In this document: positions 36,071 to 38,945 of the stretch, piece after piece | How the letters are laid out: every line of letters begins with the position of its first letter | How positions within the stretch are numbered: position 1 is the first letter of the stretch | Assembly (NCBI RefSeq): GCF_015752155.1 | Contig: NZ_JADOVI010000010.1 | Coordinates: forward strand, 62,001-126,000 | DNA: 64,000 nucleotides | Reading direction: 5' to 3' | DNA from: Cryobacterium sp. MP_M3 | GTDB lineage: Bacteria > Actinomycetota > Actinomycetes > Actinomycetales > Microbacteriaceae | Translations under genes and position numbers: made by a program | The notes under the pieces: generated by a model | The model's input: the letters and a program-made list of their open reading frames with translations, nothing else | Databases searched by the model: none | What the model was told of the DNA's origin: nothing

Positions 36071-36302
36071 TCGTTCGGGGCCGTTAGGTACCTTGACCGG
36101 CTTGTTTGTGCTCCTGCGGGATTTCGCGTCGGAATCGGCAACGGGAGCCTCTGGGAGCCGGCCACGACTTGCGATGCTCGTTGTCTCCCTCTCTGCCGCG
36201 TTGCCGCTTTGCCGCTGTCATCCATTCGGCCCACTCCCCCACCGTTGTTACTCTCGAGCGCGCCCTCCCACTGCCCCACTCCCCCAGCCCCGTGACTGCG
36301 CC

Positions 36303-36349
36303 GGTCCATGCCTGCGCGGGTCCATGCCTGCGCGGGTCAATGAGTGCGC
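36303..36349. repeat. Three tandem 16-nt repeats
   Basis: GGTCCATGCCTGCGC, then GGGTCCATGCCTGCGC, then GGGTCAATGAGTGCGC, within the parS island. The third unit has diverged. Confidence 0.85.
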
Positions 36350-36393
36350 CTGTTCGTGGTTGCGGGTGTCCGGTTGGGCCAGCCCGTCAGGTA

Positions 36394-36407
36394 GTTTCAC
36401 GTGAAAC
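36394..36407. promoter_or_regulatory. parS site
   Basis: Exact GTTTCACGTGAAAC, 324 nt after the parB stop. Confidence 0.93.
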
Positions 36408-37063
36408 GTGGGGTCGGTGCTCGGGGCGGCAGTGTCGTTGGGGCGTGACGCTTCAGAGATACCGGGGTCGTGCGCAGCACCCTCCGGTGGGTGCGCGTGG
36501 CGAGTCAGTCCCGTGAAGCGTGAAATGCCTGCCAACACTTGTTCGTCTGAGGCCTGGTCTGCAACGTCATGGAACTCGGAGCGGACTGGGACCAGGGGGC
36601 GAGTGAGTCCGTGAGGCGGAAGCGAGGCAGCGGCACTCGAGGCGGACGGGCGCCCGGTGCACCCTCGCCGCGGAGCAGGGCTTAGCTCAGGCTGCACGTG
36701 ACAGCTCTTCGTTCCCTCTCCCCCATTCATCGGGCGGTGGGTGCCGGTGCTGCCGGTGTTGGTGTTGTTCCGGGTTCGCGAGCTGGGGGCGGTGCTCGGC
36801 GACGTGAGCGTACGTCGGTGAGGCAATCGACGGAGACAGGGTGAGCACAACCGATACGGCTCCTCGCAGCAGTGTGAGATGGTCGGTGCGGGGGCTGGGT
36901 GGCCGGCGGGATGAACGCCGGTCGATGCGTGGAGTTGCCGTCTGGTCGAGTCGCTTGCCCGGTCGATTGTTGTCCTCGCTGGCGAGGCGGAGTCTCCCGC
37001 CTGCGTGGGGAGAACGCAGTCGACGCCCTGAGGGGCGCAATAACGAGTGCGGTGATATCCACG

Positions 37064-37093
37064 CAGCAGCAGCAGCAGCAGCAGCAGCAGCAG
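37064..37093. repeat. (CAG)10 trinucleotide microsatellite
   Basis: Ten uninterrupted CAG units followed by CAA. Perfect trinucleotide tracts of this length are rare in bacteria and the tract is not inside a supported gene. Confidence 0.95.
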
Positions 37094-37428
37094 CAACGCC
37101 AGGCAGTGTCGGTGGGGTGGAGAGGGCACTATCCGGGAAAGACGAGGAGGACGCTCGTGGCGTCCGAGGAGCACAACCATCGCCGGGCAACGTCCGGTGC
37201 CTTTGACAGCGGGGTTCCCGCAGCCGGCGGACCGTGAGCCGTCACGGTTGTATGAGCGGCTGGAGAGTCCGGCTAGCCGGTGCGACAACGCAGGGGGACA
37301 CATTCGGCAGCGGCGAGTGACGCCGAGGAGCGGTCACGCCATTTGTGGGCATGGGTGAGTCGCCGACAGAGTGTGCAGCGCAGGGTCCGGCTGAGTCCGC
37401 GGAGCAGAGTACCTGGTGCTCATGCGAT

Positions 37429-37442
37429 GTTTCACGTGAAAC
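37429..37442. promoter_or_regulatory. parS site
   Basis: Exact GTTTCACGTGAAAC in the parS island. Confidence 0.93.
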
Positions 37443-37660
37443 GTTGTTGTTGCCCGGCTCGATGGTCAAGGGGCCGTACGGGAGCTGTCGCCTGTTACTC
37501 AGCTCCGGCCGAACCGCGATGGCCCGCGAGGGTCGGGGTCTGCGCTCACTCCCCAACCGGTGCATCTGTGAGCCACACGGTCCTCCCTTGAGATAGACGG
37601 AGGATTCGGCAGGATATGCGCGCCACGCCGGTGTCATCGGTGTCCGGGAGGCGCTTGTCG

Positions 37661-37690
37661 CCAGTGCCAGTGCCAGTGCCCGTGCACGTG
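37661..37690. repeat. Hexanucleotide tandem repeat
   Basis: CCAGTG three times, then the variants CCCGTG and CACGTG. Confidence 0.8.
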
Positions 37691-38132
37691 CTGTTGGGTG
37701 ATCCACTCAGGTGTGGTTTCACTCTGCGGCCTCACCAGGCAGGCGTGGACGCGGTTCTCGGTCGCGCTGAGGCCGAATGTGGTCGTGAGGCGTCTGGACG
37801 GCTGCGGTGGCTGTCATCGCGCAGGTCGTCGCGCGAGCACCGGCGGATTACCAGGCCGTGGCGCGCCTCCCGATGTGACCTGTGAAGGTGGCTTCGGTGA
37901 CCGCGGAGGCCCCGGTGACCTTGGTGACCTTGGTGACGTCGAAGGCTTCGGTATGCGCGGGAGTGTGCGCGGGAGTTTATAGCCCGGGGATTGGATCAGC
38001 TTCTGATTCGGGCGGCGGGTGCCACCTGTGCCTTCTGTCAGCATGTGCGGGGACTGCAGGGCGTCGGAAGCCTCTCTGCCCGGCTGCGCCGGTGAGAGGA
38101 TCATCAGGGCCAGGGTTGGCGGAGAGGATCAT

Positions 38133-38146
38133 GTTTCACGTGAAAC
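38133..38146. promoter_or_regulatory. parS site
   Basis: Exact GTTTCACGTGAAAC in the parS island. Confidence 0.93.
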
Positions 38147-38911
38147 GTCGGTCCCGGGAATCCATCAGGACCGCGCAGTCCTCTCCTGCGGACCACCGGA
38201 CGGACGCTGCGGCCTATCGGTTAGGGTCCAGAACCAGGACGGTCAGACGGCGGGTACGCTGTGAAAGCCGTCCACCAGGCCCAGCGCGGTTCCCCGTCGG
38301 ATCTCCCGGTCACTCGTGTAGTCGGCCCGGCGCTCCGGCGGCGCCGCACAGGAGTCTCAACGTCACTGCCGGTGCCGGCACGTCATCGACGATGCGTAGG
38401 AGCAGGGCCGGGCGATCGCCTGGGGGTTTTGGCCGGTGAGTGGTTCCGTCGTCCGGAAGGTGCTGGCCGACTGAGTGCACGTTTCACCACGGAGTATTCG
38501 CCATATCATCGCACCCTCAGAGTCGGTCCCACCCGTTGAGTCCCCCGCGCGACTCGGACCGGCACGACACTCGGCAGGCCAAACGTCGACCCAGGGGCGG
38601 GGCTTTCACATAGGAATGAGTGCGGAGTGACGTGCGAGACGTCCCCGGGGTGTGTTCCGGTGGACAGGACACCTCGCCCTCCGAATTCGCCCGGGGGTGC
38701 CTCTCTGGCTGGGAAGCTGGGGAATGCTCAGCGGAGAGCTGATTTGGGGTCGATAATGGGCGAAAAACGCCCGGCACGGAATCCCGGAACTGGTCATAGG
38801 ATCGATCCTGACGACGTGAAAATCGCTCTTTTGAGGACTTTATCTGCCTGTTCCGGGTGAAAAGTGAGCCGTCGTCGAGGAGCCCTTGGTCGTCGACCGA
38901 TGACCGTGAAT

Positions 38912-38925
38912 GTTTCACGTGAAAC
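38912..38925. promoter_or_regulatory. parS site
   Basis: Exact GTTTCACGTGAAAC, 20 nt beyond the 3' end of ddl; last site of the island. Confidence 0.93.
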
Positions 38926-38945
38926 CAGTCGGAGATCGAGGGTCC

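Follow-up and report, generated by a model that had tools for sequence, protein, structure and literature searches.

The parS sites of Cryobacterium are mostly gathered in a gap without recognisable genes between parB and the convergent ddl gene. Throughout the genus the sites and their position are conserved and the DNA between them turns over; tandem duplications are found in the gap, as is one deletion whose direction can be polarised. We judge it probable, at about 0.7, that the parS sites are selected, that the spacer between them is turnover filler, and that the gap, here called the island, makes up most of the chromosomal centromere. We infer that the filler is free of selection. With its cluster of parS the island belongs to an ordinary chromosomal ParABS system, a known kind of centromere in an unusual form: parS occurs above chance, genes with ParA and ParB domains are adjacent, and the probable oriC is near. 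The sites are read as parS, and ParB binding and every segregation step are presumed from known ParABS biology.

The parS island and its surroundings

The window, i.e. the whole 64-kb stretch of DNA that was analysed (genome G000 in the survey), has the Pfam-based gene order dnaN-dnaA ... yidC-jag-rsmG-parA-parB-island-ddl-aminotransferase. Its relevant features are the following.

28905..29269, no strand: dnaA-dnaN gap, probable oriC (dnaA and dnaN by Pfam; DnaA-box matches at 29054-29242)
34113..35111, plus strand: parA (Pfam AAA_31 5e-63, CbiA 2e-30; KGGVGKTT in the translation)
34166..34179, no strand: parS 1, exact GTTTCACGTGAAAC, overlapping the 5' end of the parA frame
35111..36070, plus strand: parB (Pfam ParB_N, HTH_ParB, ParB_C; GERR motif in the translation)
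36071..38945, no strand: gene-free parS island between convergent parB and ddl
36296..36350, no strand: tandem repeat, 16-bp unit x 3.4 (TRF)
36394..36407, no strand: parS 2, exact GTTTCACGTGAAAC
37063..37095, no strand: microsatellite (GCA)11 (TRF)
37429..37442, no strand: parS 3, exact GTTTCACGTGAAAC
38133..38146, no strand: parS 4, exact GTTTCACGTGAAAC
38777..38945, no strand: ddl-proximal island tail, aligning with genome G033 (blastn)
38912..38925, no strand: parS 5, exact GTTTCACGTGAAAC, with the ddl stop codon 20 bp away
38946..39902, minus strand: ddl, D-alanine--D-alanine ligase (Pfam Dala_Dala_lig_C 2.5e-42), convergent with parB

The parS sequence is GTTTCACGTGAAAC, and the 64-kb window contains five exact copies, starting at 34166, 36394, 37429, 38133 and 38912; one is at the parA start and four are in the 2,875-bp gap between parB and ddl. 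No further match was found in the window even when up to 3 mismatches were allowed. Dinucleotide shuffles of the window gave 1.43 matches at this threshold with a maximum of 5, and the five real sites are all exact. In the whole genome (3,940,246 bp in 56 contigs) these five are the sole places with at most 2 mismatches, so that the sequence-only reading, which had reported four exact sites, one more at the parA start and none elsewhere in the window, was borne out and also holds genome-wide. The coordinates of parA are those of the longest frame; the true start may be at or inside the parS at 34166, where an in-frame GTG is present. The ParB of the window is 97% identical to that of Cryobacterium algoritolerans and 98% identical to that of G033 from the same genus. 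An SMC gene was found in the genome.

The distance from the island to the probable oriC, an origin itself inferred, is about 7 kb. With dnaA this close, the island could in principle be a second origin or a replication-control site. This is extremely improbable: the island contains no DnaA-box match at up to 1 mismatch, and the box matches are found in the dnaA-dnaN gap (97.5% identity to G033) and in the dnaA-rpmH gap (98.7%). Elsewhere in the window, five DnaA-box-like matches (two exact) are packed into 200 bp (54835-55032) of a well conserved, noncoding-looking gap that lies upstream of dnaB; this cluster is possibly a DnaA-controlled dnaB promoter or a titration site.

The coding potential was analyzed across the complete interval 36071-38945. 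Period-3 power was 0.2-1.9 in 16 of 18 segments of 300 bp and 3.4 and 4.0 in the other two; for the yardstick, 1,215 coding segments of the genus, the median is 7.3 and the 5th percentile 3.6. A run of low periodicity extends from 35842 to 38103 (2,262 bp) and is directly followed by another of 1,170 bp. Neither the window nor 400 kb from a second contig of the genome has a longer run than the former, with the exception of one 3.9-kb contig end with 54% GC, which we take for a putative rRNA operon. The island is overlapped by 22 ORFs with a length of 60 aa or above, each of which was compared with Pfam (E up to 1); 20 gave no match and the remaining two gave three weak matches (E 0.048, 0.28 and 0.31), all under the curated cut-offs. 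The Rfam search found no match in the island and one sub-threshold match outside it. Between 35900 and 39200 the number of predicted terminators was as expected (2 found, 2.0 expected), and no promoter was found where 0.3 were expected, a result that is neutral with respect to selection on length. The earlier statement that the interval contains no recognisable gene thus stands: there is neither a clear codon signal nor a conserved protein family in it.

The island does contain a long open frame, of 351 aa at 36248-37303 on the minus strand, which might be taken for a recent orphan gene; a noncoding RNA could also be considered. A frame of this length is expected in DNA with 66% GC. The lack of clear codon periodicity, the gap-filled alignment with G033 and the absence of an Rfam match in the island make either a highly improbable explanation.

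Conservation of the parS cluster in Cryobacterium and related genera

ParB was found in 56 of 57 Cryobacterium genomes, that of the window included, and the interval between parB and ddl was measured in 55 of these 56. The interval counts leave out G019, in which the contig stops before ddl, and G030, an assembly of 800 contigs with 6% contamination that has no ParB match and no parS. All 55 measured genomes (again including that of the window) have the parS cluster in the same place, downstream of parB. The interval holds 2-9 exact parS per genome, commonly three to six. Altogether the 55 islands (72,608 bp) contain 247 exact parS; a further 16 copies deviate at one position, 2 at two and 5 at three. 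The corresponding values for shuffled islands are 0, 0, 0.15 and 1.65.

The sites are preferentially located at the two ends of the island. The first parS is at most 40 bp from the parB stop in 37/55 genomes, versus 11.3 after random placement (maximum 21 in 2,000 simulations), and the last is at most 40 bp from the ddl stop in 41/55, versus 11.0 (maximum 20 in 2,000 simulations). The window follows this habit on the ddl side (20 bp) and departs from it on the parB side (323 bp). In G450 (L207) parB consists of two overlapping pieces. The interval of this genome (698 bp) includes 202 bp of the frameshifted parB; after correction the interval measures 496 bp, and its first parS is at +35. The end-placement counts and the length tests use the uncorrected interval, and the corrected count on the parB side is one higher.

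Each of the 55 genus genomes where parA was found also has a parS close to the start of this gene. In the 54 genomes with a located parA, 54 parS belong to the parA start and 245 to the interval, and the locus has 14 more at other positions. Whole-genome counts could be compared with a measured locus in 39 genomes, the other 18 of the 57 being left out; in 38 of the 39, every exact parS of the genome is at the fetched locus. The exception is G028, which has 4 parS in the genome and 2 in the fetched piece, from a truncated contig. The two observations named beforehand as speaking against a centromere, conserved proteins in the interval and parS spread evenly in relatives, were looked for and neither was made.

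The spacing of the sites begins at 26 bp and has a median of 198 bp (192 spacings). The number of parS increases weakly with the length of the island (Spearman 0.27, p 0.047, with relatedness ignored); G020 has four parS in an interval of 268 bp, as many as the window has in 2,875 bp. Helical phasing gave a mean resultant of 0.09-0.18 at three periods, compared with an expected value of about 0.09, in a set of 119 spacings below 300 bp that includes repeats of one 130-bp array.

The same interval was inspected in 52 loci from other Microbacteriaceae genera with both parB and ddl; five of 57 non-Cryobacterium loci (L096, L101, L107, L109 and L112) have no recognisable ddl and were left out. No parS is present in 32/52 intervals (17-395 bp), one in 6/52 (29-206 bp) and two or more in 14/52 (50-1,185 bp). 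Intervals of more than 450 bp occur in 7 of the 14 loci with at least two internal parS, versus 0 of the 38 others, when relatedness is ignored.

Two genera differ in their sites. An exact GTTTCACGTGAAAC is absent from 14 of the 15 genomes of genus g50; four parB loci, L228 (G409), L229 (G087), L230 (G349) and L232 (G304), have GTTCCACGTGGAAC and/or mixed forms such as GTTCCACGTGAAAC, and L231 (G314) and L234 (G083) also belong to the loci concerned. Judged by the letters of the sites, these forms read as a natural shift of the parS consensus. In genus g36, no parS-like site with up to 2 mismatches is present in two 3.9-kb parB loci, L233 (G073) and L235 (G145), although ParB is present with 61-64% identity; possibly the specificity of ParB or the position of the site has changed.

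The comparison between genera also bears on the idea that the island consists of the remains of lost genes or of a decayed mobile element between parB and ddl. Relatives can take up an element, as seen from the DDE transposase gene in the island of G017. However, in 45/52 loci of other genera the interval is at most 450 bp, so that a gene between parB and ddl is not the usual state. The island of the window has no clear period-3 signal and no Pfam family among its 22 ORFs. A DNA search of its own genome and 57 genus genomes, run to see whether the island belongs to a mobile element or is copied from elsewhere in the genome, returned short, mostly repeat-like (microsatellite-like) matches, and this candidate was rejected; the same search matched the ddl-proximal end in G033 and G027. 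Gene or element remains are hence a very unlikely source of the island.

Turnover of the spacer and inheritance of its length

The spacer was compared with that of G033, which differs from the window by 6.5% in parA, parB, ddl and the aminotransferase gene (93.5% identity) and by 20.5% at fourfold sites. The fetched G033 stretch covers 89% of the window in blastn, with 94-96% identity in long collinear blocks and 78-90% in shorter ones. The blocks leave out 1-3770, 36075-38776 and three pieces of between 77 and 146 bp. The island is therefore the one large gap inside the part shared with G033; this gap starts 4 bp past the parB stop and ends at the tail at 38777, where two blocks begin with an identity of 0.72-0.77 per 100 bp. 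Ten other noncoding-looking stretches, chosen by hand, are 79-99% identical between the window and G033; three of the ten could not be located in G447. The poorest of them, 19430-19800, also differs in length (371 versus 591 bp). For three further stretches of the window, 17204-19742, 51403-52731 and 1-3860, the alignment with what was fetched of G033 or G447 is poor or absent.

Global alignment uncovered weak homology between the islands of the window and G033 (z 9.6 with 12 shuffles), and the value for G447 was 1.0. The blastn result could be read as no homology at all between the nearest islands; this reading was dropped because of the z of 9.6. In simulations, a score like that of the G033 island is reached when approximately 37-44% of the positions are substituted and indels are included, which is about double the fourfold divergence. 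In closer pairs of other clades the spacer identity is 85.9% outside gaps for G034/G005, with a fourfold divergence of 13.5%, and 72.4% for G004/G031, with 18.7%. Because of the residual homology to G033 and the near-fourfold rates in the closer pairs, the spacer appears to behave as unconstrained DNA that was not replaced wholesale and that changes faster than fourfold sites in the clade of the window. This agrees with the earlier statement that the DNA between the parS is not conserved while the sites are kept.

The length of the island ranges from 155 to 3,629 bp in the 55 genomes, i.e. more than 20-fold, and neither it nor the spacing of the sites is constant across relatives. On a midpoint-rooted FastTree phylogeny of four genes, island length has a Pagel lambda of 1.0 (likelihood ratio 41.8 against 0). 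In the group of the window and its sister group, together 11 genomes, most islands measure 2-3 kb, the exceptions being 1,321, 1,173 and 678 bp; another group of 17 genomes has 194-982 bp except for one member with 1,325 bp. There is no such relation to genome size (Spearman -0.05). Island length is passed on by descent without being fixed, and the length data do not separate selection from drift by duplication and deletion.

The sequence-only reading had gone further and suggested that the length of DNA between the sites is maintained. In this scenario the centromere is selected for its length: on 1-3 kb of DNA free of transcription, ParB clamps can build up and form bridges before RNA polymerase gets in their way, and the sequence is irrelevant, such that it turns over while the length stays. 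The full phylogenetic signal of length in spite of the lost sequence is consistent with this, as is the convergence of the flanking genes on the gap. Sixteen close pairs with less than 10% alignable island differ in length by a median of 0.32 log2 units, compared with 1.19 after shuffling (7 of 5,000 shuffles were as low); these pairs overlap and are not independent. G000, G033 and G447 have islands of 2,875, 2,960 and 2,920 bp with little or no common sequence. This length of about 2.9 kb in three of the four nearest species, despite a near-erased sequence, does not fit well with pure drift; the fourth member of the group, G027, has 1,321 bp. The intervals above 450 bp in other genera, all with at least two parS, point in the same direction. 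However, lambda of 1 is also the expectation from drift, islands of 155-432 bp are found in many species within the more than 20-fold range, and ParB of Corynebacterium glutamicum spreads up to 16 kb to either side of a single parS, according to excerpts of PMC7083940. What is left of the proposal is the inheritance of length; its maintenance by selection we regard as rather unlikely.

Growth and loss of the probable centromere

Tandem repeats make up 12.2% of the island DNA in the genus, versus 0.37% of the flanking genes and 0.03-0.14% of shuffled islands. The island of the window, which had been described as full of young tandem repeats, has six small arrays with a total of 188 bp (6.5%). 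This is well above the flanking genes and close to the 5.2% measured in the genome's other noncoding-like DNA, and the description holds in the former respect only. With this one genome as a yardstick, the excess over ordinary noncoding DNA is about 2.3-fold for the genus and near nil for the island of the window. Satellite-like tandem turnover with conserved boxes is clear in G015 and G003: the former has a 130-bp unit x 7.2 with seven parS at 130-bp steps, a pattern shared with L049 (Cryobacterium sp. Y11), and the latter has a 106-bp repeat unit that carries a parS. G451 has an 81-bp array without parS, and further arrays occur in G021, G023 and G017. Short dispersed repeats such as GGTCGAGCCTGTCGAGACC and TTGAGCTTGTCGAAATCA are present in several islands, L196 and L197 (G004, G031), L201 (G375) and L190 (G002); they look like small intergenic elements.

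The reverse process was found once. G005 lacks 121 bp that are present in G034; the break is inside a parS, and G005 has a single exact parS where G034 has a parS and a copy with one mismatch. The two outgroups G450 and G446 retain the segment with exact sites at both ends, which indicates that the deletion from parS to parS is derived. It is the only such deletion that was polarised.

Duplication explains only some of the sites. The flanks of parS have more than 60% identity in 6.7% of 491 pairs within islands, versus 0.3% of 29,890 pairs between islands, and 21 of the 33 alike pairs within islands come from G015. Because flanks within an island are rarely alike, most parS copies are apparently not recent duplicates, and their origin is outside the account of the duplication model. 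The longest island (3,629 bp) is that of G017 with its transposase gene. High periodicity, above the coding 5th percentile, was found in 22 of 401 segments of the genus islands, distributed over eight islands; nine belong to the G017 transposase, the segments in G447 and G002 have the look of repeats, and the other five islands include that of the window with a single segment.

These events also suit a tentative and rather unlikely alternative, the counterpart of a regional, satellite-type centromere. Here the amount of gene-free DNA between the two convergent genes, as opposed to its sequence, would be under lineage-specific selection since it sets ParB loading and bridging; the island would grow by duplication of parS units, shrink by recombination between parS sites, and its size would be a quantitative trait passed on by descent.

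In our preferred reading of selected parS in turnover filler the system would work as follows. ParB is a CTP-dependent clamp that is loaded at parS and slides from there. In Cryobacterium, ParB dimers would thus load at the island as CTP-bound clamps and slide over the surrounding DNA; ParA would move the ParB complex, which probably recruits the SMC condensin. Selection would keep the parS, usually with one directly behind parB and one directly before the ddl stop. The filler would lengthen by local tandem duplication, sometimes of a unit bearing a parS, and shorten by deletion, at least once from parS to parS with removal of the spacer and fusion of the two sites. Since the gap has no genes and both flanking genes converge on it, turnover should be cheap; the filler would therefore drift in length by descent and lose its sequence while the flanking genes change by 6.5%.

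In vitro, the sliding of ParB is blocked by DNA-bound obstacles, yet bypass is possible (excerpts of PMC9242446), and sliding together with bridging can account for partition complexes (excerpts of PMC10387095). A gene-free gap between convergent genes should be a good loading zone for ParB. Such a gap is not required in general because C. glutamicum manages with one parS and ParB spread to 16 kb.

The known systems resemble the Cryobacterium locus in part; the comparisons refer to excerpts of the papers cited. C. glutamicum also has an actinobacterial chromosome with parS near oriC and a ParB and SMC system (PMC7083940). It has ten parS with a 16-bp consensus, nine of them intergenic, which extend over 35 kb at 73 kb from oriC, whereas most sites at the Cryobacterium locus are packed into a single gene-free gap that follows parB directly, with the probable oriC about 7 kb away. 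Myxococcus xanthus likewise has many parS beside parAB, about 30 kb from the origin, but there are 24 and they are upstream of parAB (PMC3778016). Neither of these two accounts takes up how the spacers evolve. In Streptomyces, also actinobacterial, parS are enriched beside oriC with a one-sided bias; however, the average chromosome has 22.8 sites, which on average lie 5.6 kb apart in an origin island of some 50 kb, with others located far beyond it (PMC8743542). Caulobacter crescentus, with at least 5 clustered parS about 8 kb from the origin, is similar in layout (PMC5815017). That work raised the question of how a centromere-like region expands over time and demonstrated experimentally that inserted clusters are tolerated, whereas the 55 Cryobacterium genomes are a record of natural growth and loss. 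The literature on clustering, spacing and evolution of parS, as far as represented by titles and abstracts mostly from outside subscription journals, mentions neither the Cryobacterium island nor turnover of the spacer between parS.

A fast-changing gap without genes in which the parS remain intact is a natural record of a bacterial centromere that grows and shrinks. With 55 genomes that have the centromere in the same place, from 155 bp to 3.6 kb and with 2 to 9 sites, the question of expansion becomes open to direct comparison. The genus offers a young parS array as well as a polarised deletion from parS to parS, and it is environmental and culturable, so that the construction of strains is feasible. 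If the length of the island were selected after all, free DNA between the loading sites would matter to ParB complexes.
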